Positions 3,674 through 14,510 of a stretch of 14,639 nt of DNA are shown in pieces; within the stretch, counting starts at the first letter, position 1, and each line of letters begins with the position of its first letter. The notes beneath the pieces are model-generated. The model did no database searches, was not told the DNA's origin, and saw only the letters and a list, made by a program, of their open reading frames with translations. The DNA comes from an uncultured Clostridia bacterium (GTDB lineage Bacteria > Bacillota > Clostridia > Lachnospirales > Lachnospiraceae). A program made the position numbers and the translations under genes. The stretch covers positions 1 to 14,639 of the forward strand of contig CAMOHF010000004.1 in NCBI GenBank assembly GCA_946614685.1. The letters run 5' to 3'.

Positions 3674-3705
3674 AAAAAAAGTCGGACTTTCGTCCGGACT
3701 TTTTT
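3674..3705 (-). terminator. Intrinsic terminator of the feo-ZIP operon
   Basis: On the minus strand a stem GTCCGGAC / GTCCGAC with one bulged base closes a GAAA tetraloop. It is extended by A/T pairs and followed by seven T (plus-strand A-run 3674-3680). The ZIP stop codon lies inside the upstream A-run, so termination is immediate. Confidence 0.88.
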
Positions 3706-4483
3706 AGCCGAGTGCCACGTCCAAAGCCATCATCAACGAAAAACCGATGGCGAAGGAAATGACGCCGATATTGGAATGTTCCCCCGCCGACATCTCGGGG
3801 ATCAGTTCTTCCACTACCACATAGAGCATCGCGCCTGCCGCAAATGAAAGCAGATACGGCATCGCCGGGACCACAAGTCCCGCAATGAGCACGGTGATGC
3901 CTCCGAAGATCGGTTCCACCGCCCCTGAAAGAACGCCCAGTACGAAGGATTTCGTTTTGCTCTTCCCTTCCGAGTAAAGCGGCATGGATATGATCGCTCC
4001 CTCGGGGAAATTCTGTATGGCGATTCCCAGCGCAAGCGCCAGTGCGCCGCCCGCCGTGATCATCCCGGACCCGTTCACGAGCCCCGCATAGACAACGCCG
4101 ACCGCCATACCCTCCGGGATGTTGTGCAGCGTCACCGCAAGCACCAGCATGGCCGTCCTGGTAAGATGGCTCTTCGGGCCCTCCACCTGGTTGATACTTC
4201 GATGGAGATGCGGTATCACGTGATCCAGCAAAAGCAGAAACAAGATACCCAGCCAGAAGCCGATAAAGGCGGGAAGAAAAGCAAGTCTTCCCTTATCCTC
4301 CGATTGCTCGATGGCCGGAACGATGAGGCTCCATATGGACGCCGCCACCATGACGCCCGCGGCAAATCCCGTAAGTGCTCTTTGAATGCTTGTCTTAAGA
4401 TCCTTCTTTAAGAAGAATACGCATGCCGATCCCGCCGCAGTTCCGGCAAAGGGGATCAGCAGTCCTGTTACTACTGTGTTCAA
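3704..4483 (-). CDS. ZIP-family metal transporter (GufA/ZupT-like)
   Basis: A 259-residue inner-membrane protein with about eight hydrophobic helices, predicted to import a divalent metal (zinc, possibly iron or manganese). The two ZIP signature helices are clear: HNIPEGMAVGV (120-130) and QNFPEGAIISMP (157-168), whose His, Asn, Pro and Glu residues form the binuclear metal site. VVVEELIPE (222-230) is the conserved acidic segment of a later helix. A cytoplasmic loop near 87-105 contains His88, His92 and His94, as is common in ZIPs. The start is TTG (4483): AAGGA lies 8 nt upstream, overlapping the end of the preceding gene, and no in-frame ATG is usable because the nearest runs into a stop. 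It is the last gene of the feo operon, 5 nt after the HMA fusion gene. Substrate cannot be fixed from sequence, but context favours a metal linked to iron status. Confidence 0.92.
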   Translation of the reverse strand: MNTVVTGLLIPFAGTAAGSACVFFLKKDLKTSIQRALTGFAAGVMVAASIWSLIVPAIEQSEDKGRLAFLPAFIGFWLGILFLLLLDHVIPHLHRSINQVEGPKSHLTRTAMLVLAVTLHNIPEGMAVGVVYAGLVNGSGMITAGGALALALGIAIQNFPEGAIISMPLYSEGKSKTKSFVLGVLSGAVEPIFGGITVLIAGLVVPAMPYLLSFAAGAMLYVVVEELIPEMSAGEHSNIGVISFAIGFSLMMALDVALG

Positions 4484-4488
4484 TCAAA

Positions 4489-4869
4489 TCATCCTTCCGA
4501 TCGAATACCGGAAACCGTATAACCGAGATCGGTGATCGTCTGACGAAGCACTTCGTCATCGATGTCCTTCCCGAGCTGTACGATCGCCAGTCCTCTGTTT
4601 CTCTTCACCTTCGCGCATACGCCGTCTACGGAGTTCAATGCGTTCTGGATTCTGGCAGCACAGTGATCACAGGTCATACCTTCTATGAGGATCTTCTTTT
4701 TCGCTATCACACGCGCCGGTTTCTTCGGCTTGATAAGCACCGGCTTTCCGCCACCGCCGCAGCATGCGCCTTCGCCCTTGAAATGCTTTACGGAACTTTT
4801 CACGGCAAAGAACATCATGACCGCTATCACTGCTATGACAATGATATCAGTTATTGTTCCGTTTGTCAC
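4489..4869 (-). CDS. Fusion of FeoB-associated Cys-rich membrane segment and HMA metal-binding domain
   Basis: The protein is 126 residues. Residues 5-24 form one hydrophobic helix, followed by a basic/Cys/Gly stretch, KSSVKHFKGEGACCGGGG, which resembles the FeoB-associated Cys-rich membrane protein family. After a Lys/Pro linker (42-59), residues 60-121 are a heavy-metal-associated ferredoxin-like domain with GMTCDHC (64-70; Cys67 and Cys70 bind metal) and the closing LGYTV. It is probably a membrane-tethered metallochaperone or sensor that works with FeoB or the ZIP transporter. The start is taken as GTG 4869, not the in-frame ATG 4893. GTG gives a 4-bp GTGA overlap with the preceding small gene, and AAGGAG lies upstream (12 nt, rather long). 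The ATG has no good ribosome site and would run far into the preceding gene. HMA domains of this type usually bind copper, so its place in an iron operon is notable. Confidence 0.85.
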   Translation of the reverse strand: MTNGTITDIIVIAVIAVMMFFAVKSSVKHFKGEGACCGGGGKPVLIKPKKPARVIAKKKILIEGMTCDHCAARIQNALNSVDGVCAKVKRNRGLAIVQLGKDIDDEVLRQTITDLGYTVSGIRSEG

Positions 4870-5027
4870 CTTTCGTGTACGCTCCTTCCGCATTTGCAGG
4901 CTTTGCCGCAGCTTTTAGCCATAGGGCAGCCGATACAGTGGCTGCCCTTCTTTTTTTCTTTGTAAATGTAGCCGCCCGCTCCCGCTACGAGCAGGACAAC
5001 TATGATCAATGCGATCAGATTGGCCAT
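4866..5027 (-). CDS. FeoB-associated Cys-rich membrane protein (53 aa)
   Basis: A short gene, easily missed. It begins MANLIALIIVVLLVAGAG, one membrane helix at residues 3-22, then a Lys-rich patch (24-27) and a Cys-rich tail, CIGCPMAKSCGKACKC, with Cys at 31, 34, 40, 44 and 46. This layout (helix, basic residues, clustered CxxC) is that of the small Cys-rich proteins encoded next to feoB in many Firmicutes; their role in Feo-dependent iron uptake is not settled. GAGG lies 8 nt before the ATG. The gene begins 15 nt after the feoB stop, and its TGA overlaps the GTG of the next gene by 4 bp, so it sits inside the operon with coupled translation. A related helix and Cys motif recur in the next gene, suggesting duplication followed by fusion to an HMA domain. 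Confidence 0.88.
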   Translation of the reverse strand: MANLIALIIVVLLVAGAGGYIYKEKKKGSHCIGCPMAKSCGKACKCGRSVHER

Positions 5028-5042
5028 GATTAAAACCTCATC

Positions 5043-7040
5043 TTAGTTAGCCTTCAAACGATACTCCACAACCATCTTTCTTCGATTGGAAAGGATGATG
5101 CCCGTGATCACTGCCGCAAAACAAAGCACTGCGATCAGTCCGCCGACAAATCCTGCGCCGAGGCTGCCTGTGGTGATCAGTGTTCCGATCTGGTATACCA
5201 GGAAGCCTACGGTATATCCTGTTACAAGCTGAAGTCCGATAGCACCCCAGAGCCACTTTGCAGACTTCATCTCGGAATTCATAGCACCGAGGGCCGCAAA
5301 GCAGGGCGGTGTATAAAGGTTGAACATCAGGTATGCAAGTGCAGCGACCTTGGTGATACCGATCACTGCTGCCACGGAAGTTCCCTCTCCGACAAGCTCA
5401 AGTTCGTCGGGATCAACCAGGTTGGTAATTGCATAAACGGTCGCGATGGTTCCTACTACATTTTCCTTTGCGATAAATCCGGTGATGGCTGCAGCTGCAA
5501 GCTGCCATGCTGCCACACCTACGATGGGTACAAGCAGTACGGAGAAGGGTCCTGCGATGGATGCGAGGATGGATGTATCCTCCATGCCTTCCTCCACTGC
5601 CTCGAAGCTCCAGTTGAATGCCTGCATGATCTGTACGACAGTGTTGCAGACAAGGATAACGGTACCGGCCTTGATGATGTATGCCTTACCACGCTCAAGC
5701 ATGGACTTTAATGCGAAGAGCAGGCTGGGTACCTTGTACTCGGGAAGCTCAATGATGAAGAAGCTCTTTCTGTATTTCATACCGGTGATCGCCTTGATCA
5801 AAAGCGCACCGAGAAGGATCAGCACGATACCGACCATGTAGCATACGAAGCTTACCCACTTTGCATCCGGGAAGAATGCGCCTGCGAAGAGCGCGATTAC
5901 GGGAAGCTTGGCACCGCAAGGCATGAAGGTTGTAAGCATGGCAGTTGCGCGTCTTTCTCTTTCGTTACGAATGGTACGGCATGCCATGATGGCGGGGATG
6001 CCGCAACCGGTTCCGATGATCATGGGGATCACGGACTTTCCGGAGAGTCCCACACGCTTAAAGATGGGATCGAGCACAACCGTCGCTCTTGCCATATATC
6101 CGCAATCCTCAAGAAGTGCGATCAGGAAGTACATCACCATAACGAGGGGCAGGAAGCCTACAACTGCGCCGACGCCGCCGATGATACCGTCAACCAAAAG
6201 CGCGTAAAGCAGCGGATTAGCGTCTGCCATCTTGTCTCCGACCCAGCCCTGGAAGGTCTCGATCCAGCCTACCAGTGCATCTGCCAACCAGGTTCCCACC
6301 GTGGTCTGGGAAATGTAGAACACCAGGAACATGATTCCCGCGAAGATGGGAATACCGATGATGGGGTGCGTGATCACCTTGTCGATGGCATCTCCCTTGG
6401 TCTTATCCTTGGTGAGGGTCTTTCGAACCTCAACATCCTTTACGATCTTGTTTACGAAGTCATAACGTCTGCGGTCTGCAGCCTCTACCGACTTCTTGTC
6501 GGTGAGATCCACTTCACCCTCGTCAAAGGGTGCGGTCTGCTTTGCGCCCGCAAGCATCTCTGCTGTTTTCACCACCTCGGCAAGTCCCTTTCCTTCTGTG
6601 GAAACGGTTTCAAGCACAGGGCACCCGAGCTTCTCGGTAAGCTTCTTTACATCGATGGTGTTACCCTTTTTGCTGTTGACATCGCTCTTATTCAGGGCAA
6701 CCACTACAGGGATTCCGAGCTCGAGCAGCTGTGTCGTAAAGAACAGGCTTCGGCTCAGATTGCTTGCGTCCACGATATTGATGATGGCATCGGGATGCTC
6801 GTTCTTCACATATCCACTGGTGATACTTTCCTCCGACGTGAAGGGTGACATGGAATAAGCGCCCGGCAGATCGACTGCGATCAGGTCTTTTCCGCTGCTG
6901 TTAAAGTTCTTCTTGATCGGGCTTTCTTTCCGGTCTACCGTAACGCCGGCCCAGTTACCGATCTTTTCGTTTCTTCCCGTCAGCGCGTTGTACATTGTTG
7001 TCTTTCCGCTGTTGGGGTTGCCTGTTAATGCGATTCTCAT
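5043..7040 (-). CDS. feoB: Ferrous iron transport protein B
   Basis: A 665-residue inner-membrane ferrous iron transporter with a cytoplasmic G domain. The G motifs are intact: GNPNSGKT (7-14), switch I around GNWAGVTVDRKE (28-39), DLPG (57-60), NKSD (117-120). A helical GDI-like region covers about 125-215. The membrane part starts near residue 225 and contains both Gate regions. Conserved Cys residues are visible in IIGTGCGIPAIMACRTIRN (341-359; Cys346) and MPCGAKLP (373-380; Cys375). The C-terminus ends with a hydrophobic helix and a short basic tail, without a fused FeoC-like winged helix. GGGAGG lies 9 nt before the ATG. It follows feoA by 16 nt and precedes the Cys-rich small gene by 15 nt. 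Regulation is expected from the two operators at the feoA promoter. Confidence 0.98.
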   Translation of the reverse strand: MRIALTGNPNSGKTTMYNALTGRNEKIGNWAGVTVDRKESPIKKNFNSSGKDLIAVDLPGAYSMSPFTSEESITSGYVKNEHPDAIINIVDASNLSRSLFFTTQLLELGIPVVVALNKSDVNSKKGNTIDVKKLTEKLGCPVLETVSTEGKGLAEVVKTAEMLAGAKQTAPFDEGEVDLTDKKSVEAADRRRYDFVNKIVKDVEVRKTLTKDKTKGDAIDKVITHPIIGIPIFAGIMFLVFYISQTTVGTWLADALVGWIETFQGWVGDKMADANPLLYALLVDGIIGGVGAVVGFLPLVMVMYFLIALLEDCGYMARATVVLDPIFKRVGLSGKSVIPMIIGTGCGIPAIMACRTIRNERERRATAMLTTFMPCGAKLPVIALFAGAFFPDAKWVSFVCYMVGIVLILLGALLIKAITGMKYRKSFFIIELPEYKVPSLLFALKSMLERGKAYIIKAGTVILVCNTVVQIMQAFNWSFEAVEEGMEDTSILASIAGPFSVLLVPIVGVAAWQLAAAAITGFIAKENVVGTIATVYAITNLVDPDELELVGEGTSVAAVIGITKVAALAYLMFNLYTPPCFAALGAMNSEMKSAKWLWGAIGLQLVTGYTVGFLVYQIGTLITTGSLGAGFVGGLIAVLCFAAVITGIILSNRRKMVVEYRLKAN

Positions 7041-7056
7041 TTCTTACATCCTCCCT

Positions 7057-7275
7057 TTATACCATGATCGCCGAAGCAAGTTCGGGATCAATGTTGTATC
7101 TCGCATCCTTGATTGAAACAACCAGGTTCCTTCTTTTATCTACCACGGTGATCTTCTCACCGCTGTAGCATCCGAGCGAGAACAGAAAGCTCTCCATCTC
7201 TTCATCTCCATCGGTGTCCACACCTGTTATGGTGTACTCTTTTCCGATATCCGCTTCATTCAGATTCATCTTCAT
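7057..7275 (-). CDS. feoA: Ferrous iron transport protein A
   Basis: A small SH3-like cytosolic partner of FeoB, 72 residues from the ATG at 7275. The fold is recognisable from GKEYTITGVDTDGDEEMESFLFSLGC, a turn GEKITVV, and a terminal strand ending in KDARYNIDPELASAIMV, which matches FeoA length and pattern. An in-frame upstream GTG (7302) would add nine residues, but AAGGAG lies between the two, 8 nt before the ATG, so 7275 is preferred; the longer start would also cut into the operator. It is the first gene of the feo operon, with a short leader (predicted +1 near 7311). Confidence 0.94.
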   Translation of the reverse strand: MKMNLNEADIGKEYTITGVDTDGDEEMESFLFSLGCYSGEKITVVDKRRNLVVSIKDARYNIDPELASAIMV

Positions 7276-7294: not shown

Positions 7295-7310
7295 ATTAGC
7301 ACCCGCTAAC
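7295..7310 (-). promoter_or_regulatory. DtxR-type operator 1 of feo (just downstream of +1)
   Basis: Plus-strand ATTAG-CACCCG-CTAAC, arms separated by 6 nt. It begins 7 nt after the feo -10 and ends about 20 nt before the feoA ATG, so an occupying protein would block transcription start. It has the same pattern as the sites at 7324, 11292 and 14458. Confidence 0.72.
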
Positions 7311-7317
7311 CATCCAC

Positions 7318-7346
7318 ATTATAATTAGCAAGGGCTAACTCGTCAA
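7318..7346 (-). promoter_or_regulatory. Sigma-A promoter of the feo operon
   Basis: Minus strand: -35 TTGACG (7346-7341), 17-bp spacer, consensus -10 TATAAT (7323-7318). The spacer holds an entire operator palindrome. This is a strong promoter by consensus and would need a repressor to be silent under iron-replete conditions. Confidence 0.88.
7324..7339 (-). promoter_or_regulatory. DtxR-type operator 2 of feo (inside -35/-10 spacer)
   Basis: Plus-strand ATTAG-CAAGGG-CTAAC fills the feo promoter spacer almost exactly. Its centre lies 29 bp from operator 1, close to three helical turns, so both sites face roughly the same side of the DNA. Confidence 0.75.
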
Positions 7347-7372
7347 GTCTTTTTTTATGACTTCCCAACATC

Positions 7373-7401
7373 TTGATAGATCGGTTCGTTTGTGTTAATC
7401 T
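7373..7401 (+). promoter_or_regulatory. Possible promoter of the DtxR-type regulator gene
   Basis: Plus strand: TTGATA (7373-7378), 17-bp spacer, TAATCT (7396-7401), a weak -10 match. It carries no operator copy; the nearest lies about 34 bp upstream of the -35. Strong direct autorepression is therefore not evident. Confidence 0.4.
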
Positions 7402-7434
7402 ACTTATATCAATATGTCGGAAAGGAATGTTGTT

Positions 7435-7809
7435 ATGGCATTATTGGAATCCGGGGAAATGTACCTCGAAACCATCTATGTGCTTTCCCAGAAATCAAAC
7501 GCCGTCCGCGCGATCGATATCGGCGAGGAAATGGGTTATTCCAAGCCCTCTGTCAGTCGTGCACTCGGACTGCTTAAAGACGACGGTCTCATCAAGAAAG
7601 ACGAAGACGGTTTTATCAAGCTGACCAAGGCCGGAGAGATCCACGCCAAGCAAATCTATGAGCGCCACACCGTACTCTCCGATCTGTTTATCAGTCTCGG
7701 TGTCGACGAGAAGACAGCGACCGAAGATGCCTGCCGGATCGAACACTACATCAGCGACAAAACATTTCAGGCACTCAAAGCACATATCGAAGCTTTCAAA
7801 TCCAAATGA
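7435..7809 (+). CDS. DtxR-family iron-type metalloregulator, short form without SH3 domain
   Basis: The protein is 124 residues from the ATG at 7435, chosen because AAAGGA lies 8 nt upstream; the in-frame ATG at 7414 has no ribosome site. The winged helix (about 5-66) includes the recognition segment YSKPSVSRALGLLKDDGLI. The dimerisation and metal domain follows. By alignment with DtxR and MntR, the primary ligands are Met9, Cys100, Glu103 and His104 (DACRIEH). This is the DtxR/IdeR iron pattern rather than the Asp/Glu pattern of MntR. His78 of the ancillary site is kept, but the DtxR Glu83 and His98 positions are Ser82 and Thr96. The C-terminal SH3-like domain is absent, as in MntR-size members. 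It is the only plus-strand gene here, divergent from feo, and is the obvious candidate to bind the RTTAG-N6-CTAAC sites. Confidence 0.93.
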   Translation: MALLESGEMYLETIYVLSQKSNAVRAIDIGEEMGYSKPSVSRALGLLKDDGLIKKDEDGFIKLTKAGEIHAKQIYERHTVLSDLFISLGVDEKTATEDACRIEHYISDKTFQALKAHIEAFKSK

Positions 7810-7816
7810 TCAAAAT

Positions 7817-7857
7817 CGGCAGCACCGGAACTTATCATCCGGCGCTGCCGTTTTTTT
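7817..7857. terminator. Intrinsic terminator shared by convergent genes
   Basis: Stem CGGCAGC-A-CCGG / CCGG-C-GCTGCCG with one internal mismatch and a 10-nt loop, then seven T on the plus strand. It clearly ends the DtxR-type gene. On the minus strand only four T follow, so it is weaker there, but it is the only candidate for the end of the ABC operon, whose stop codon lies in the A-run. Confidence 0.87.
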
Positions 7858-10546
7858 ATTCTACATTTTTGAGTGCCACATCCATAGGGATATGCTTGAT
7901 CCTGATAAAGTCGATCACTGATACAAAAGCGTAACCGATCAGGAGGTAGAGTACTGCAAGCACCATGGAGCCCGGCTTCATATAGAAAGCGAAATAACCG
8001 TCCATCTGCATCATGAAGACATGGAAGATCCATATCATCAGATAGTAACCGATCACAAAGCTGATCAGCGCAAAGAGGACTACGACAATCGCAGTCGGCA
8101 CGATGTAGAGCGCACCGATCTCACTGTTCTTAAAACCGAGGATCTTCACCATGGAGATGGAATGCTCGTTTCTCTCAATGATGATCTTGGCAAGCAGGTA
8201 GATCAGCGCCGCCGTCATCACGATCAAAGCGTACTTGAATACATCCATCATACCGCCCATCGAGTGCATGAGCTGATTGGTAACCTTTAAGATATCCTTC
8301 GACGTGATCACCGTCGCGATACTTTCCTCATCGATATCCGTGATCTCATTTCTTGAAAAGAATCCGGAAAAGTCATCCTTGTCCTTATCAAATGTCTCGT
8401 TGAAATCTTCGTGTCGCATGAACACTGCGATACCGCCGTCATAATCCACGATTCCGGCAACCGTAAACTCATAGGACTTGTTCTCGTATTCCTCGTGAAG
8501 TTCTACCTTGTCACCTTTTTTGATTCCGAACTTGCTGGCAAATGCACTCGAGATATAGACGTTCTTTCCCTGCGCGTCGCTGCCGAGACTTACATAGTAG
8601 CTGTCGTCTTCAACGCCGTAAACTGTCACGCCTTCGTCTCCGCCGCTTCCCATACCTGTGCGGAAGGATGACTTTCCTTTGTGATACATCAGGCTTGTCA
8701 TGCCGAAGCGCTCTGCGGTCTTCTCAGAGGTTTCGATGGTGTTTCCATCCTCATCCTCCGGTCCCATCAGCATGTACTGGTACTCGGCAAACATCATATC
8801 CGGTGCCTTATCCGCGTAATGTGTAAGGGAATCCGGAAGTCCGAATGCGAAGCACAGCATCAACTGGATGAAGATGACGCCGAAGATCAAAACCAGATAA
8901 TTCGGCATATTCTGGAAAAGTATCCTCAGTCTGAACCTGTGCATAAAGGACCAGGAGGGAAGTCTTCTCGCCTTGGTTCTCTTGGTCTTTACAAGATCGT
9001 GGCGCAGGAACTTCAAGGGACTTAACTGCAGCTTCTTTACGATAACGATCAGGTTGACCGCAAACATCAAAACAAGCGGGATCACCGTGGTCTTCACCAG
9101 GGCCATATTGCTCCAGACGGTACGGCAGGCAGGCAGACTGTAGCTGTTGTAATAAAGTCCTACCGCCACATCCCGGAAGAGGGTGTAGCCGAGGATGTTT
9201 CCGATCAGCGCACCGAGTACCGTCACGATGATGGGCATCGTCATATAGTGCACGATCAGCTCACTCCTGCTGTAACCGGACGCGCGCAGCGTACCGATCA
9301 CGGAAGCCTCCTTGTCGATGGTATTGCTTATGGTGATCGCGAAGATAAATGCGATGACGCCGATCAGGATGTAGCACAGGATGCTTGCACCCGTGGTATC
9401 ACCCTCGATGTCGGTGATCGCAAAGTTGCTCGCCTGTCTTAAATACTCCGGCAGGTAATCTTCTATTTCATTGTCATAAACAAGTGTCTGTGTGATAAGC
9501 GCCTTTAAGAATCGCTCGGAATAATTTTCCTGATCTTCCTTTTCTACGGGCTTTTTGTCATACATGAACCCGTAGCTGTAATGTGTTCTGGTTTTAACCT
9601 CAGCGAAAGCTTCCGGTGTCATCATGGCAACATCGAATCCGAAGGAGTCAAACATCAGATCCGTGTTGTTCTCGTGAAGGGTCAGATAGTTTACATAGGA
9701 AAGAAGACCTACAACCTTGTACTGTTTTCCTCCAACCGTGATCGTATCGCCAATCTTTACGCCCACGTTGTCCGCATGCATTCTGTCGATGGCGATCTCG
9801 TCTGCCGCAGTCGGCGCATGTCCCTCGTTGAAGGACGCAAGATCGATGGTTGCGTCGGTCTTGTAGATTCGGACATTTGCCTCTTCTTCTCCGTCGCCGT
9901 CCACATCCTCGGGTGCTTCCTTATAGAAGTTCTCATAAATCGTTGTGGTGACGGGCTTATGCTCCTCGTTCAGCTTGTACTGATCCGCGATCTCGTCCCA
10001 CTTTTCGTCGACCTTTTCCTCGACGGTGTCGTGCGCTTCCTCGTAAGCCTCCTTCTCTGCCTTCTTGAAGTCGTCCGATTCGCGCGCTTCCTTCATTGCA
10101 TCCTCAAAGGATGCGTCCATGGCTGCATCAATCTGCTGCCCGATCATCTCTTCGTCAGTGATACCGTAGGATGCGCACTGCGCTCTGACGCCATCCTCGA
10201 TGGCCTGCTTCACCTGCTTTTCGAGTTCCTCTTCGACGGCGTCGGCAACTTCCTTATCCGCCTCCCGGATACCCTTGTCGATCAGGTACTGACGTACATC
10301 CGCCATCTCTCCCTTGGAAATATCATCGAGCAGTTCCTGCGATGCCTTACGGGAAAGTTCAAAGCTTCCGTCCTCAAGCTTCAGCGTCTCTCTGCCGTCA
10401 TAGGCCGATGCAAGCATACTGTCATGTCCGACATACATGCCGGAGATCACGCCGATCATCAAGACCATGAAGATGATGATCACCGCATATTTGTGCCAGT
10501 CGGATCTTAATTCTTTCGGCACCCTTTTGATCAATGGATTCCTCAT
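7856..10546 (-). CDS. Large ABC transporter permease, FtsX family, with charged extracellular insert
   Basis: An 896-residue membrane subunit with about eight helices: TM1 at 18-39, then three near 388-410, 436-458 and 484-504 (first FtsX core), one at 547-569, and three near 770-790, 812-838 and 860-882 (second FtsX core). Two large extracytoplasmic regions result (about 40-385 and 570-768). Each contains a MacB-like stretch of the form VGVKIGDTITVGGKQYKVVG (261-280) or FGIKKGDKVELHE (673-685). Residues 62-195 are unusual, a strongly charged Lys/Glu helical segment, probably coiled coil, followed by DVDGDGEEE (214-222). FtsX/MacB-type permeases couple ATP hydrolysis to movement of an external domain rather than classical import. 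The substrate is unknown; lipid, peptide or drug export or envelope signalling are all possible. The ATG at 10546 follows AAGGGGG and is 12 nt after the ATPase gene stop. Confidence 0.92.
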   Translation of the reverse strand: MRNPLIKRVPKELRSDWHKYAVIIIFMVLMIGVISGMYVGHDSMLASAYDGRETLKLEDGSFELSRKASQELLDDISKGEMADVRQYLIDKGIREADKEVADAVEEELEKQVKQAIEDGVRAQCASYGITDEEMIGQQIDAAMDASFEDAMKEARESDDFKKAEKEAYEEAHDTVEEKVDEKWDEIADQYKLNEEHKPVTTTIYENFYKEAPEDVDGDGEEEANVRIYKTDATIDLASFNEGHAPTAADEIAIDRMHADNVGVKIGDTITVGGKQYKVVGLLSYVNYLTLHENNTDLMFDSFGFDVAMMTPEAFAEVKTRTHYSYGFMYDKKPVEKEDQENYSERFLKALITQTLVYDNEIEDYLPEYLRQASNFAITDIEGDTTGASILCYILIGVIAFIFAITISNTIDKEASVIGTLRASGYSRSELIVHYMTMPIIVTVLGALIGNILGYTLFRDVAVGLYYNSYSLPACRTVWSNMALVKTTVIPLVLMFAVNLIVIVKKLQLSPLKFLRHDLVKTKRTKARRLPSWSFMHRFRLRILFQNMPNYLVLIFGVIFIQLMLCFAFGLPDSLTHYADKAPDMMFAEYQYMLMGPEDEDGNTIETSEKTAERFGMTSLMYHKGKSSFRTGMGSGGDEGVTVYGVEDDSYYVSLGSDAQGKNVYISSAFASKFGIKKGDKVELHEEYENKSYEFTVAGIVDYDGGIAVFMRHEDFNETFDKDKDDFSGFFSRNEITDIDEESIATVITSKDILKVTNQLMHSMGGMMDVFKYALIVMTAALIYLLAKIIIERNEHSISMVKILGFKNSEIGALYIVPTAIVVVLFALISFVIGYYLMIWIFHVFMMQMDGYFAFYMKPGSMVLAVLYLLIGYAFVSVIDFIRIKHIPMDVALKNVE

Positions 10547-10558
10547 GTCATCGCCCCC

Positions 10559-11266
10559 TTACCACTCAAGCTCGGCAGCCGGAATCTTGTTCTCAATGAT
10601 ATTGTTGTGGCGAACGACGCCGTCGCGGAGTTTGATCACGTGATCCGCCATATTCTTGATGGCCTCGTTGTGCGTTACCATGATGACAGTGCTTCCGTAC
10701 TTACTGTTGCAATCCTCGATCAAAGCGAGGATCTCCTTGGAGGTCTTATAGTCAAGCGCTCCGGTCGGCTCATCACAGAGCAGGATGTCGGGATTTTTCA
10801 CCACGGCTCTTCCGATGGAAACTCTCTGCTGCTGGCCGCCGGACAGCTGATTGGGATACTTATACTTGTGATCCTGGAGTCCGAGTGTGGTAATCACCTC
10901 TTCAACGTCTAAGGGATTAGACGAAAGATAGGCGCCCACCTCGATGTTCTCCTTTACATTTAAGTTCGGAATCAGGTTGTACATCTGAAACACGTAGCCG
11001 AGGTGGGTGCGGCGGTACTGCGTAAGCTGCTTCTCGCTCATCTCTTCGAGCTTATCCCCTGCGATGCTCACATATCCCTCATCCGGCGTATCGATTCCGC
11101 CGATGATATTTAAGAGCGTCGACTTTCCGGAACCGGAAGGTCCGAGCAGTACGCAAAACTCACCCTTCTTCACGGTGAAATCCATACCGCGCAAAACATC
11201 CTGCCTTGCCTCTCCCGTTCCGAAACTCTTTTTCAGATCCTTGATTTCAAGAAAACGTTCGTCCAT
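10559..11266 (-). CDS. ABC transporter ATP-binding protein (MacB/LolD type)
   Basis: A complete 235-residue nucleotide-binding subunit. Walker A is GPSGSGKST (42-50), the Q-loop is in YVFQMYNLIP (Gln94), the signature is LSGGQQQR (141-148), Walker B is ILLCDEP (161-167), the D-loop is GALD, and the switch His is His199 in VTHN. This order and the VFQMYNLIPNLNV segment are typical of ATPases that pair with FtsX-type permeases. The start is well supported: AGGAGG lies 6 nt before the ATG. The permease gene follows after 12 nt, so the two form one transporter. Upstream, within 40 nt, lies a perfect 7-bp-arm palindrome of the DtxR-like type, and beyond it the TetR gene. No convincing promoter of its own was found, so it may be read from the tetR promoter. 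Confidence 0.96.
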   Translation of the reverse strand: MDERFLEIKDLKKSFGTGEARQDVLRGMDFTVKKGEFCVLLGPSGSGKSTLLNIIGGIDTPDEGYVSIAGDKLEEMSEKQLTQYRRTHLGYVFQMYNLIPNLNVKENIEVGAYLSSNPLDVEEVITTLGLQDHKYKYPNQLSGGQQQRVSIGRAVVKNPDILLCDEPTGALDYKTSKEILALIEDCNSKYGSTVIMVTHNEAIKNMADHVIKLRDGVVRHNNIIENKIPAAELEW

Positions 11267-11289
11267 ATTACTCCTCCTGTTTTATCGAA

Positions 11290-11309
11290 AGGTTAGTCTT
11301 TGCTAACCT
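11290..11309 (-). promoter_or_regulatory. Palindrome upstream of ABC ATPase: candidate DtxR-type operator or mRNA hairpin
   Basis: Perfect 20-bp interrupted palindrome AGGTTAG-TCTTTG-CTAACCT. Its GTTAG-N6-CTAAC core has the same arms and 6-nt spacing as the feo and ATPase-operon sites. Unlike those, it is not tied to a recognisable -35/-10 pair. As RNA it could also form a 7-bp hairpin between tetR and the ABC genes, so its role is uncertain. Confidence 0.5.
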
Positions 11310-11315
11310 CCGTTT

Positions 11316-11343
11316 GCAAAAAACCGGCATTTCATCCGATTTT
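11316..11343 (-). terminator. Weak intrinsic terminator candidate after tetR
   Basis: On the minus strand, AAAATCGG / CCGGTTTTTT can pair over 8 bp (one G-U) around an 8-nt loop, followed by T-run. It lies directly after the tetR stop. The stem is short and A/T-rich at its base, so partial read-through into the ABC genes is plausible. Confidence 0.45.
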
Positions 11344-11961
11344 CTACTGTTCTTTCATCATGACCAATTCGATCCAGCCCTTGACCAGATAATTCAAGAT
11401 CGGTCTCATCCTTCGCTTCGCTTCTTCCACGTCCTCCACATGTCTGATCACATTTGTGAATGCATCGATCGTAAGATGTGCCATCCAGTGGGACATATAC
11501 GCGTCTACGGTATAGCCCTTCATGCCGGATACCATCACAGGGATCGACTGCTCGATCAGATCCACAAACTCATCCACACAGTTTTCGTACACTGTGTTCT
11601 CTGCCGAGTTCAGGACGAGAATAAAGCTGTCACGATAGCGGTAAATGTACTCAATGAACATATCGCTCTCGTCGGAATGATCCGGATCGATATCCTGTAC
11701 CGAATCCATCCCTGACATATACTCGCGATCGTCTTTAAAATGTTTCGCAAGCAGCTCCTTCAGTCCCGCAAGCGGTCCGTCGACAATCTCGGCGAACAGT
11801 TCCTCCTTGTTTTTAAAGAAGAAATACAGGGCCCCCGTGGTAACTCCCGCTTGGGAGCATATGTTTCGCAGGGACGCCTTGTTATACCCCTTCTCAAGGA
11901 ATTCCTTCTTGGCTGCTTCGATCAGAAGTTCTCGTTTCTTATATTCCATATCCTGCTTCAT
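11344..11961 (-). CDS. TetR-family transcriptional regulator
   Basis: The protein is 205 residues. The N-terminal TetR helix-turn-helix is clear: KRELLIEAAKKEFLEKGY (9-26), then ASLRNICSQAGVTTGALYFFFKNKEELF, the recognition helix and canonical follow-on. The rest is an all-helical ligand-binding and dimerisation domain, too variable to suggest a ligand. The ATG at 11961 is taken as start; the upstream ribosome site is only a weak GGCGGG, and Met5 is an alternative. The gene lies directly upstream of the ABC ATPase and permease on the same strand, the common arrangement for a repressor of an efflux-type ABC transporter. A perfect 32-bp palindrome overlaps its promoter, which implies autorepression and, by read-through, control of the transporter. 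Confidence 0.93.
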   Translation of the reverse strand: MKQDMEYKKRELLIEAAKKEFLEKGYNKASLRNICSQAGVTTGALYFFFKNKEELFAEIVDGPLAGLKELLAKHFKDDREYMSGMDSVQDIDPDHSDESDMFIEYIYRYRDSFILVLNSAENTVYENCVDEFVDLIEQSIPVMVSGMKGYTVDAYMSHWMAHLTIDAFTNVIRHVEDVEEAKRRMRPILNYLVKGWIELVMMKEQ

Positions 11962-11978
11962 AATTAAACCCGCCCAAA

Positions 11979-12010
11979 AAGATAACAGCGTTACGTAACG
12001 CTGTTATCTT
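11979..12010. promoter_or_regulatory. Perfect 32-bp palindrome: likely TetR operator
   Basis: The half-site is AAGATAACAGCGTTAC followed by its exact reverse complement with no spacer (centre 11994/11995). It overlaps the -10 and start region of the tetR promoter, the usual place for an autoregulatory TetR operator. On the minus strand it is followed by five T, so the transcript could also fold it into a hairpin that ends the upstream ATPase operon; both roles are possible. Confidence 0.78.
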
Positions 12011-12034
12011 AATGCATCCTTCCGGGTTTGTCAA
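12006..12034 (-). promoter_or_regulatory. Sigma-A promoter of tetR (and possibly the ABC genes)
   Basis: Minus strand: consensus -35 TTGACA (12034-12029), 17-bp spacer, -10 TAAGAT (12011-12006). The -35 lies 7 nt past the stop of the P-type ATPase gene. The -10 overlaps the edge of the 32-bp palindrome. Confidence 0.8.
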
Positions 12035-12041
12035 CACTTTT

Positions 12042-14138
12042 TTATTTGGATGTGCATTTTTCCTCCGGTAAAAGGTTCGTCATACTCCTTAGACCGAGCG
12101 CCACAGTGGAGCCATTATGGAGCGTCGCGCTTGTCGCCGGGGGCAGAACGCCGGCGATGCCGAGTCCGATCAATGCTGTGTTAAATCCCACGATCGTTCT
12201 GTAGTTAAACCGGATCCGCTTCATCAAAAGGGTACTGATCTCCTTTAGCACCACGATGCCGTTTAAGTTATCGGAGCCGATCGTAATATCCGCAATCTGT
12301 CTGGCAATTTCCGCGCCGTCACTGATCGCTATACCTGCATCCGATGCCGCTAAGGCCGGCGAATCATTTATACCGTCTCCCACCATGATCACGCTATGTC
12401 CGCAGGCCTTGGCTTTCTCCACATAGTTTGCCTTATCCTCCGGAAGCACCTCGGCGTAATACTCGGTGATCCCGGCTTCCGCCGCAATCTTTGCGGCTGT
12501 TCTCTCACTGTCGCCGGTCATCATGACGATATGCCGAAATCCCTGCTGCCGTAAGCGATTCACAACATCACGCGCCTCGGTACGCAGCGGATCCTCGATC
12601 AGAATGCAGGCGCACAGACTGCCGTTCTTTGCAAAATACAGGTGTGAATATTCGTCGGGCAGAGAATCAAACAGTTCTTTTTTGCCTTCCGGAATGCACA
12701 CGCCCTCATCCTCGAACAGGAAGTGATAGCTTCCTATGACAGCCTTTTCTCCGTTAATCTCGGATGCGATTCCGTGTGCAACGATATACTCGACATTTGT
12801 ATGCATTTCCTCGTGAAGCAGGCCTTTTTCAAAGGCCGCATCCACAACCGCTCTGGCTACGGAGTGCGGGAAGTGCTCCTCAAGACAGGCCGCCTGTCTT
12901 AACAGCTCATCCTCCGTCTCGTCATTAAACGAAACCACCCTTACCACTGTCGGCTGTGCCTTGGTGATGGTTCCGGTTTTGTCAAACACGATGGTGTCCG
13001 CATCCGCCACAGCCTCGAGGAATTTTCCTCCCTTTACGGTGATGCCGTACTCCGAGGCTTCCTTGATCGCGGAAAGAACGGAGATCGGCATGGCCATCTT
13101 CAAGGCGCAGGAATAATCTACCATCAGAACGGATACCGCCTTAGTGACATTTCTGCTAATCGCCCATGTAAGACCTGCCGCCATCAACGTATACGGCACA
13201 AGCTTATCCGCGATCCTCTCCGCTTTGCTCTCGAGCGCGGATTTCATCTTTTCGGATTCCTCAATCATCCTGACGATCTTATCAAATCTTCCGCAGCCTT
13301 CCGTCTGTGTAACTTTGATGGTCAGGTCTCCCTCGGAAACCACGGTTCCGGCAAAGGCGCTCATACCGACGCACTTGCGCACCGCCGTGGATTCTCCGGT
13401 CATGGATGCCTGATTCACCATCGCCTCACCGGAATCAACCTCACCGTCAAACGGAATCATATTTCCCATTCTGACGACAACTCTGTCTCCGCATTCCACG
13501 GTCGACGCATCCACCTGCACCTCTCCGCTTTCGGTCAGGAGCCATACCTTATCTATATTCAGAGACATCCTTCTGGCCAGGTCATCCACGGATCGCTTAT
13601 GCGTCCACTCCTCCAGCGTATCTCCGATCTTCAGAAGAAACATGACATTGGATGCTGTCTGATAATCCTTGGTCAGCACTGCGGACGAGATGGCCAGTGC
13701 GTCAAGCACCTCCACCTGCAGGTGTCTGTTCCCGAGGGTCTTTACTCCACGCCAAATGTATTTCACAGCCTTGACCGTATCTGCGATCCTTCGAAGTGAA
13801 AACGGCAGAATTATGCGCTTTCCGAAGTGCAGGATCGCAGTCGTAACAATCCTGTCGTAATACTTTGCGGAAAGCTCTCTTCCGGAATACTCAAACCCCC
13901 TTTCCGGAACCTCCGTCCTCTCAAAGGAAAATTCTTTTATGATCTCTATGATCCTCGACCTGTCGCAATCAAAATAAACTGCTACATCCGCGGTTCGTTC
14001 ATATACCCGCACATCCAGGATCCCGTCAAAGCTTTTCAGATAATACTCTATCGTGTCCGCCTCGCGAAAGCTCAGTCGTTTCTTCGCGAGATGGACGCGG
14101 ATTCTGTTCCTTATCTCATGCTTTACCGTGAATTTCAT
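12042..14138 (-). CDS. P1B-type metal ATPase with degenerate HMA_2-like N-terminus (FezB-like candidate)
   Basis: A 698-residue P-type ATPase with all catalytic motifs: TGES (247-250, actuator), DKTGT (phosphorylated Asp386), MTGD (540-543), GDGINDSPA (587-595). The P1B nucleotide-domain signature appears as EEHFPHSVARAV (420-431). Residues 1-75 are a ferredoxin-like domain without the CxxC of copper/zinc HMA domains, opening with an Arg-rich stretch, HEIRNRIRVH. The ion-path helix reads DYSCALKMAMP (341-351) instead of CPC or SPC, so it is not a classical copper, zinc or cobalt pump. The N-terminal membrane helices are weakly hydrophobic and the C-terminus ends after LPPATSATLHNGSTVALGLRSM. 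These traits and the small partner upstream recall the P1B-6 ATPases of ferrosome (Fez) clusters, which move iron into storage vesicles; this assignment is inference. It overlaps the upstream gene by 4 bp (ATGA). Confidence 0.93.
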   Translation of the reverse strand: MKFTVKHEIRNRIRVHLAKKRLSFREADTIEYYLKSFDGILDVRVYERTADVAVYFDCDRSRIIEIIKEFSFERTEVPERGFEYSGRELSAKYYDRIVTTAILHFGKRIILPFSLRRIADTVKAVKYIWRGVKTLGNRHLQVEVLDALAISSAVLTKDYQTASNVMFLLKIGDTLEEWTHKRSVDDLARRMSLNIDKVWLLTESGEVQVDASTVECGDRVVVRMGNMIPFDGEVDSGEAMVNQASMTGESTAVRKCVGMSAFAGTVVSEGDLTIKVTQTEGCGRFDKIVRMIEESEKMKSALESKAERIADKLVPYTLMAAGLTWAISRNVTKAVSVLMVDYSCALKMAMPISVLSAIKEASEYGITVKGGKFLEAVADADTIVFDKTGTITKAQPTVVRVVSFNDETEDELLRQAACLEEHFPHSVARAVVDAAFEKGLLHEEMHTNVEYIVAHGIASEINGEKAVIGSYHFLFEDEGVCIPEGKKELFDSLPDEYSHLYFAKNGSLCACILIEDPLRTEARDVVNRLRQQGFRHIVMMTGDSERTAAKIAAEAGITEYYAEVLPEDKANYVEKAKACGHSVIMVGDGINDSPALAASDAGIAISDGAEIARQIADITIGSDNLNGIVVLKEISTLLMKRIRFNYRTIVGFNTALIGLGIAGVLPPATSATLHNGSTVALGLRSMTNLLPEEKCTSK

Positions 14139-14380
14139 TCTTCTTCCGCATCTTCCTTCTGTGCTCGTTCTTCATTGATTGCCTTGGCTTCTTCATAGAT
14201 GTCTGTGCAATTCTCCTGAAGCGTTGTAACCTGATCGATCACGGAATCTTTCATTCTTAAGACGCCGGCTGTGCAGTGTGCATACACCTTCTTTGCGTCC
14301 TTCGATGAAAGCAGCTTGATCCCCTCCAGTCCGAAGAGTGTTCCGAGTGCAAATACGCCTACATTTTTAAGACTCATCAT
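14135..14380 (-). CDS. Small hydrophobic-N-terminus protein, DUF6110-like (FezA-like candidate)
   Basis: The protein is 81 residues. Residues 5-22 form one hydrophobic Gly-rich helix, VGVFALGTLFGLEGIKLL, with small-residue spacing suited to helix packing. The rest (23-81) is a soluble amphipathic helical region ending in an acidic/Lys tail. KDAKKVYAHCTAGVLRMKDSV resembles what I recall of the DUF6110 family, usually encoded beside metal P-type ATPases in Clostridia; I cannot verify this here. AAAGGAG lies 6 nt before the first of two adjacent ATGs (14380). The stop overlaps the ATPase start by 4 bp, so the two are coupled and probably form one membrane complex. A ferrosome FezA-type role is a hypothesis from this pairing, not from a catalytic motif. 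It is led by the operator-bearing promoter at 14482-14510. Confidence 0.85.
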   Translation of the reverse strand: MMSLKNVGVFALGTLFGLEGIKLLSSKDAKKVYAHCTAGVLRMKDSVIDQVTTLQENCTDIYEEAKAINEERAQKEDAEEE

Positions 14381-14430
14381 GTTGATCTCCTTTCGCTTGT
14401 TGCTGTCTCAATCCCGGTTTTGCATGACGA

Positions 14431-14455
14431 AACCGCAGTCGTAACAACTGCGGTT
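14431..14455 (-). other. Stable hairpin in the 5' leader of the ATPase operon
   Basis: Perfect 9-bp stem AACCGCAGT / ACTGCGGTT around a 7-nt loop, extendable with one bulge. It lies between the predicted +1 (about 14475) and the first ATG (14380), so it would be in the mRNA leader. No T-run follows, so it is not a terminator. It may stabilise the message or bind a regulator. Confidence 0.5.
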
Positions 14456-14457
14456 CG

Positions 14458-14473
14458 GTTAGCCACGCCTAAC
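14458..14473 (-). promoter_or_regulatory. DtxR-type operator of the P-type ATPase operon
   Basis: Plus-strand GTTAG-CCACGC-CTAAC. It begins 8 nt after the -10 of the operon promoter, almost the same geometry as feo operator 1 (7 nt). This implies that the ATPase operon is repressed together with feo. Confidence 0.72.
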
Positions 14474-14481
14474 TAGATACC

Positions 14482-14510
14482 AATGTATCACAAGCATTTA
14501 TGAAAGTCAA
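14482..14510 (-). promoter_or_regulatory. Sigma-A promoter of the P-type ATPase operon
   Basis: Minus strand: -35 TTGACT (14510-14505), 17-bp spacer, extended -10 TG-A-TACATT (14487-14482). The leader to the first ATG is about 95 nt and contains the operator and a 9-bp hairpin. Confidence 0.8.

Follow-up and report, generated by a model that had tools for sequence, protein, structure and literature searches.

A short interrupted palindrome, RTTAG-N6-CTAAY (RTTAGNNNNNNCTAAY), lies in front of three operons in a 14,639-nt stretch of DNA (the window) from an uncultured Clostridia bacterium of the Lachnospiraceae, contig CAMOHF010000004.1 of assembly GCA_946614685.1. The palindrome is probably the operator of the DtxR/MntR-family regulator encoded at 7435-7809, bound by a single metal-loaded dimer that would repress, in response to iron, the feo operon, a metal ATPase operon and an ABC transporter operon. 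By the sequence features set out below, the regulon is real and conserved; it belongs to a known family, and its operator is unusual in consisting of one recognition unit and carrying a different inner base. Since relatives have such sites at iron genes as well, this form of iron control appears to be widespread, and it has been little studied.

The Palindrome in the Window and Its Genome

The window holds exactly four matches to the palindrome, at 7295-7310 (site 1, ATTAGCACCCGCTAAC), 7324-7339 (site 2, ATTAGCAAGGGCTAAC), 11292-11307 (site 3, GTTAGTCTTTGCTAAC) and 14458-14473 (site 4, GTTAGCCACGCCTAAC), none of which is assigned to a strand. These are the four copies, each with a 6-nt spacer, that had been reported in a preliminary description of this DNA, and the window contains no further one. 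The chance expectation is a mean of 0.01 copies, and four or more copies arose in none of 200 shuffles. The arms of site 3, which lies 25 nt before the open reading frame (ORF) of an ABC transporter ATPase, reach 7 nt (AGGTTAG/CTAACCT).

The assembly from which the window comes (1.386 Mb, 64% complete) contains five copies, four of them inside the window, and three copies of a reversed control pattern. The fifth copy (C130:2728), on another contig, is located 27 nt before a gene for a 600-amino-acid (aa) ABC transporter, which is followed by a second ABC gene, and a TetR gene stands on the opposite side. All five copies are intergenic, as had been claimed for those of the window, with the nuance that the longest feoA frame (GTG 7302) starts inside site 1. 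The likelier start of feoA (7057-7275, minus strand) is ATG 7275, because an AAGGAG Shine-Dalgarno sequence precedes it, and this choice leaves site 1 intergenic. The sites mark the feo and ATPase operons as described, but the original term "local iron regulon" is too narrow in its first word, since the fifth site is on another contig and sites are present at iron genes across the order.

A sibling genome (G027), which is 100% complete and encodes a regulator 99% identical to that of the window, has four sites genome-wide, all within the orthologous 5-kb stretch, and eight copies of the control pattern. In many genomes, the site is often no commoner in total than the reversed control. The signal therefore resides in the placement of the sites rather than in their number.

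Placement of the Sites at Promoters

The feo promoter, TTGACG-17-TATAAT (7318-7346, minus strand; 11 of 12 matches), confirms that one copy occupies a promoter spacer and another follows the -10 element: site 2 covers 16 of the 17 spacer bases, and site 1 starts 7 nt after the -10. Likewise, the promoter of the ATPase operon, TTGACT-17-TACATT with TG before the -10 (14482-14510, minus strand; 9 of 12 matches), places site 4 at the expected 8 nt after the -10.

These positions recur in relatives. Among 32 promoter/site pairs scored at 9 or more of 12 matches, 20 sites start 2-11 nt after the -10 and five start 18-24 nt before its end, that is, in the spacer. Of 21 pairs at ATPase operons, 10 sites start 0-11 nt after the -10, two are in the spacer and nine are elsewhere; three further sites lack such a promoter. 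Double sites (spacer plus +1), as at the window feo promoter, were also found in two relatives (G040 and G043) and at the ATPase promoters of two loci (L203, from Lachnospiraceae bacterium AC2029, and L205). In seven DUF6110 leaders, selected for having a site, GTTAG and CTAA are invariant at a mean column identity of 42%. As read from these predicted promoters, the placement is a repressor layout, with many sites closely following the -10 or occupying the spacer.

A promoter-like sequence on the plus strand, TTAGCA-18-TATAAT at 7296-7325, overlaps both feo sites and shares the feo -10 region. It may drive the regulator gene, which would then be autoregulated.

Conservation of the Sites in Relatives

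Fifteen relatives, selected by genome completeness and a low number of sites, gave 74 sites together with the fifth site of the window's own genome. Fifty-eight of these were intergenic, compared with 13 of 41 control sites from eight genomes (Fisher p 1e-6, with genomes that are not independent; calls were made with a crude ORF caller, and the coding fraction of the control loci was 0.84). Together with the five intergenic copies of the own genome, this answers the genome-wide scan proposed in the preliminary description: the motif is not equally common inside genes. By class, the intergenic fraction was 46/49 for GTTAG...CTAAC, 10/18 for mixed ends and 2/7 for ATTAG...CTAAT.

Twenty-five of the 74 sites, distributed over 13 of the 15 relatives, are within 300 nt upstream of FeoA, FeoB or DtxR genes. 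Forty control loci yielded one FeoB relative (L126), whose match begins approximately 0.2 kb beyond its control site; that control site itself was counted as inside an ORF. The genes behind sites in relatives encode DtxR, FeoA, FeoB, an ABC-FtsX pair, ABC gene pairs, an HMA protein and DUF2325. For example, an ABC-FtsX pair stands behind a site in G032 and G036, with an ABC ATPase 76-80% identical to that of the window, and an FTR1 permease gene followed by one for an Fe2+ transport protein is also found behind a site.

A second survey covered the best 80 relatives of the window ATPase among the matches listed, mostly from Lachnospiraceae or its genera, with several of the closest from the rumen. 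The 1.09 Mb around these genes contained 124 sites and eight control sites, a set enriched by the choice of locus. At least one site was present in 58 of the 80 loci, and none of the 124 fell inside the ATPase gene. The targets were DUF6110 (16), FeoB (14), DtxR (9), FeoA (8), ABC (2), TetR (2), HMA (2) and other genes (77), while three sites were inside ORFs and 17 had no gene start within 300 nt. Among the other targets, of whose BLAST clusters the representatives alone were scanned, a cluster of nine had a Fur-family representative (a stricter word check for Fur gave two), clusters of six, five and four were represented by DUF3793, DUF2325 and a methyltransferase, and one target was a flavodoxin. 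Among the 21 closest relatives, the ATPase was preceded by a site in 11.

One of the relatives carries a Fur-family gene behind a site (L226, 1983-2429), which suggests a link between DtxR-type and Fur-type regulators.

Two Classes of FeoB

The 61 FeoB genes with E <1e-50 in 37 genomes of the genus were all searched up to 960 nt upstream, or over a shorter span where a contig ended. Nine of the 37 genomes are among the 15 relatives above, and others had been partly examined before. Short FeoB, the kind encoded in the window, was defined as an open frame of less than 720 aa, frames of 203, 445 and 649 aa included. A site was upstream of 24 of 27 short FeoB genes and of 5 of 34 long ones (Fisher p 4e-9, genomes not independent), and the reversed control was upstream of none of the 61. 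The two classes occur side by side in many genomes of the genus. The regulator was not found in four of the genomes, three of which (G002, G007 and G021) encode FeoB of the long type alone, in each case without a site.

The Regulator and Its Proposed Recognition of the Palindrome

The regulator (7435-7809, plus strand; alternative start 7414) has 124 aa and two domains, without an SH3 domain. It matches PF01325 with 43.8 bits (cut-off 26) and PF02742 with 52.5 bits (cut-off 27). In DtxR, the primary metal site is formed by Met10, Cys102, Glu105 and His106, and the ancillary site by His79, Glu83 and His98. Alignment to solved DtxR pairs M9, C100, E103 and H104 of the regulator with the primary ligands, and the Cys, Glu and His ligands are invariant in 30 of 30 regulator sequences, the window and sibling included. 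The assignment to the DtxR family stands on both family domains and the kept primary ligands, but the size is MntR-like. Since an MntR-like size is combined with a DtxR-like primary site, iron is the likelier metal and manganese a possible one.

The operator known for this family is the 19-bp DtxR/IdeR box (TTAGGTTAGSCTAACCTAA), which holds two overlapping TTAG-N6-CTAA units (PMC8464063, PMC10317159). That unit is common to the box and the window sites. In 62 intergenic sites, the inner base of the half sites is C in 39%, T in 44%, A in 11% and G in 6%, and the flanks show weak base preferences that do not make up the second overlapping unit. The site is consequently not an exact half of the IdeR box, in which the inner base is G. 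The sites had been described as single-dimer versions of the 19-bp box; a half-box precedent in IdeR supports this.

In IdeR, the residue that touches the inner base, the first C of CCTAA, is Gln43 (PMC8464063). At the Gln43 position, the window protein has Arg and 21 of 30 sequences have Val, while the DNA-contact residues Ser37 and Pro39 are kept in 27/30 and 28/30. The inner base and its contact residue have therefore changed together, which fits the window regulator as the binder. On these grounds, we infer that the regulator at 7435-7809 binds the RTTAG-N6-CTAAY sites.

The DUF6110-ATPase Operon

The operon behind site 4 encodes, on the minus strand, a DUF6110 protein (14135-14380; PF19605, E 3.6e-32), a PacL-like partner of P1B6 ATPases, and a P1B6-type metal ATPase (12042-14138) identified by profile match and by SCAL and HN motifs. 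The earlier label "ATPase operon" holds for the operon and its site and is better worded as P1B6 with a DUF6110 partner. SCA is the metal-site helix motif of P1B6 ATPases. It is present in 80 of 80 ATPase relatives and invariant in 16 of 16 aligned; the HN motif of the last transmembrane region, TLHNGST in the window, was found in all 79 relatives that are long enough. A DUF6110 gene directly precedes that of the ATPase in 79 of 80 loci, and a sample of 295 genomes from the order had DUF6110 in 49.

The ATPase is favoured to load an iron store, in the manner of ferrosomes, rather than to export toxic iron. This preference follows from the promoter layout, which predicts shut-off by iron, since a metal-repressed exporter would make little sense. 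In Clostridioides difficile, FezB is a P1B6 ATPase. FezA and FezB are required for ferrosomes and repressed by Fur (PMC12574912). The fez operon resembles that of the window in combining a gene for a small membrane-type protein, a P1B6-type ATPase gene and a site for an iron-type repressor. It differs in that control is by Fur rather than a DtxR-type protein. DUF6110 is related to DUF1490 (PacL), whose members are partners of mycobacterial CtpC; it is typically encoded beside P1B6 ATPases, which are poorly characterised and of which the conserved HN motif is a feature (PMC9374683). The PacL1-CtpC system of Mycobacterium tuberculosis likewise pairs a PacL-related protein with a P1B6 ATPase. CtpC resists excess zinc, whereas the promoter layout of the window operon predicts that an ample supply of the sensed metal would switch it off.

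A near-perfect inverted repeat with 12-nt arms (14431-14455) separates site 4 from the DUF6110 gene; it is also present in the sibling and has no Rfam match. An RNA element in the leaders was dropped as a candidate, since comparison of the window with Rfam gave nothing at gathering thresholds. The sibling lacks the DUF6110-ATPase operon through an approximately 2.1-kb deletion between 11-bp direct repeats (window 12236-12246 and 14383-14393; L069 12489), and site 4 is kept there despite the loss of the operon behind it.

Proposed Mechanism and Rival Explanations

In the favoured mechanism, one metal-loaded regulator dimer would occupy one copy of the palindrome, with the TTAG...CTAA spacing that a single dimer of the pair on the classical 19-bp box uses. 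Because the sites are found where transcription starts or between the -35 and -10 elements, the loaded regulator would block RNA polymerase there, with two such sites side by side at feo. When iron falls, the regulator would be released, and FeoAB uptake, the DUF6110-P1B6 pair, the ABC-FtsX transporter and the second, distant ABC-transporter operon would be made. We infer Fe2+ to be the co-repressor. The marks that favour iron are Feo, FTR1 with the Fe2+ transport protein, and flavodoxin as targets, and Met plus Cys as ligands in the regulator.

Several observations weigh against this reading. Sixteen of the 74 sites are inside ORFs, and 49 do not adjoin FeoA, FeoB or DtxR genes. Half of the 30 regulator loci (15) had an exact site within flanks that reached at most 1.5 kb, and the other 15 had none; at 30 DUF6110 loci, 16 (the window included) had an exact site and 14 had none. 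Of the 77 loci with sufficient upstream sequence, 18 carry a site no more than 800 nt before the ATPase and 59 do not. There is no promoter-like match at site 3, and 7 of the 32 and 9 of the 21 promoter/site pairs are at neither repressor position, in a scoring without a shuffled control. The own genome encodes a second, long-type FeoB (C2:12159-12617) with no site, and also two Fur-family genes. One genus genome (G025) has no detected regulator, yet carries a site before a 203-aa FeoB frame, a case that either contradicts strict co-occurrence or reflects an assembly gap. In the regulator itself, only His79 of the ancillary site is kept, with Glu83 replaced by Ser and His98 by Thr, and the SH3-like C-terminal domain is absent (124 aa vs 226-233 aa in the listed full-length DtxR/IdeR chains). 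Its best NCBIfam match is E. coli-type MntR, below cut-off. At the Met10 position, Asp is found in 21/30 sequences, Asn in 7/30 and Met in 2/30, namely the window and the sibling; the metal choice may therefore vary or be manganese. Furthermore, IdeR Q43A retains box binding, and binding is lost when C1 and C2 of the repeats are both T (PMC8464063), so that the IdeR readout is not simply transferable.

The same operator and regulator could instead form an MntR regulon that senses manganese, with a manganese-type FeoB, the ZIP transporter and the metal ATPase as its members. This alternative is unlikely, if far from negligible. It draws on the MntR match, the missing SH3 domain, the MntR-type Asp as prevailing first ligand, equivalents of MntR Glu11 and His77 kept in 30 of 30 sequences, and the fact that one alone of the two feoB classes is regularly under the site. 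A manganese-transporting FeoB exists in Porphyromonas gingivalis. The Nramp manganese importer was above cut-off in 0 of 24 genomes, with weaker matches in two; manganese could thus enter another way, and this usual marker could not decide. On the other side, MntR Asp8 and Glu99 are replaced by Met9 and Cys100 in the window, the Met, shared with the sibling, being that of DtxR and the Cys being invariant, and genes for FTR1 with the Fe2+ transport protein and for flavodoxin are behind sites in relatives. It is rather improbable that the protein acts as an activator at the ATPase and ABC operons and as a repressor at feo alone. Such a dual role is known from Bacillus subtilis MntR, which activates efflux genes as well as repressing others (PMC11275975), and efflux by the ATPase, on the model of PacL-CtpC, is conceivable. 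However, activation by MntR works through several arrayed sites, of which one overlaps the -35 (PMC11275975), whereas the ATPase site of the window is 8 nt after the -10 and 12 of 21 sites in relatives are 0-11 nt after it or in the spacer.

The palindrome may also belong to another regulator of the neighbourhood, either the TetR protein encoded at 11344-11961 or a Fur-family protein, which is quite unlikely. TetR genes are just upstream of sites 3 and 5, the genome has its two Fur-family genes, and a site precedes a Fur-family gene in a relative. Against this, RTTAG-N6-CTAAY is unlike a Fur box, and a relative of the window TetR gene was found in 2 of 80 loci, compared with sites in 58 of 80. 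TetR was moreover rejected as the binder because a distinct perfect palindrome (11979-12010) is present at its own promoter. Finally, the sites could be chance palindromes in AT-rich intergenic DNA, an explanation compatible with whole-genome totals that are often no higher than control. Its probability is minimal in view of the four copies against 0.01 expected in the window, the 58 of 74 intergenic sites, the 124 sites against eight controls, the 24 of 27 short feoB genes and the recurrent promoter positions.

Relation to Known Systems and Significance

Operation by a DtxR-type dimer on the palindrome, the reading preferred here, has its closest parallel in IdeR/DtxR. The primary metal ligands are shared, Cys102 also being given as a ligand in PMC10317159, and the operator lies over +1 or the -10 in both, as the box at repressed IdeR genes overlaps +1 and/or the -10 (PMC10317159). 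The systems differ in that the box has two overlapping units, an inner G and Gln43, and the window has one unit, C/T and Arg; the SH3 domain is absent and the ancillary site mostly lost in the window regulator. A single IdeR dimer occupies a half box with a KD of 78 nM, and a 14-bp consensus, TTAGGNNNNCCTAA, has been proposed (PMC8464063). This half site, at nuo of Saccharopolyspora erythraea, also accommodates one dimer per TTAG-N6-CTAA unit, but it is a divergent single target, whereas the window type looks like the regulon's standard operator and has another inner base. MntR of B. subtilis and Escherichia coli shares the two-domain size and the Glu11 and His77 equivalents, and binds as a single dimer at repressed B. 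subtilis promoters (PMC11275975); it has Asp8 and Glu99 in place of Met and Cys, and the MntR site of B. subtilis mntH contains TTTGCCTTAAGGAAA, not TTAG-N6-CTAA. Among the titles listed by literature searches, limited to open-licence papers, no described DtxR regulon of such a kind was recognised.

A 2023 review lists the role of IdeR half sites as an open question (PMC10317159). Here, half sites appear as a regulon's default operator with defined promoter positions, which makes their function directly testable. The system would provide a candidate iron regulator and target list for a large group of gut and rumen commensals, and the promoter of the DUF6110-P1B6 pair, which is poorly characterised, connects that pair with iron. 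A broader generalisation is possible though somewhat doubtful: a Lachnospirales-type system may exist in which a small two-domain DtxR-type iron sensor, with single-dimer half boxes as its normal operator, controls Feo and ferrosome-type DUF6110-P1B6 storage, replacing or acting beside Fur in many of these commensals. If so, iron limitation would switch on uptake and storage machinery together.

Other Features of the Operons

Behind feoA, the minus strand carries feoB of the short type (5043-7040, 665 aa, by profile match), a FeoB-associated Cys-rich small membrane protein (4866-5027; PF12669, E 6.9e-5, below the curated cut-off), a small HMA-domain protein (4489-4893; PF00403) and a ZIP-family metal transporter (3704-4483; PF02535). 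Downstream of site 3, the ABC transporter ATPase (10559-11266, minus strand) is followed in the same orientation by an FtsX/MacB-like permease (7856-10546), both assigned by profile match. The promoter of the TetR gene, TTGACA-17-TAAGAT, has its -10 and start overlapped by the perfect inverted repeat at 11979-12010, whose arms are 16 nt long and which is likely to be TetR's own operator.

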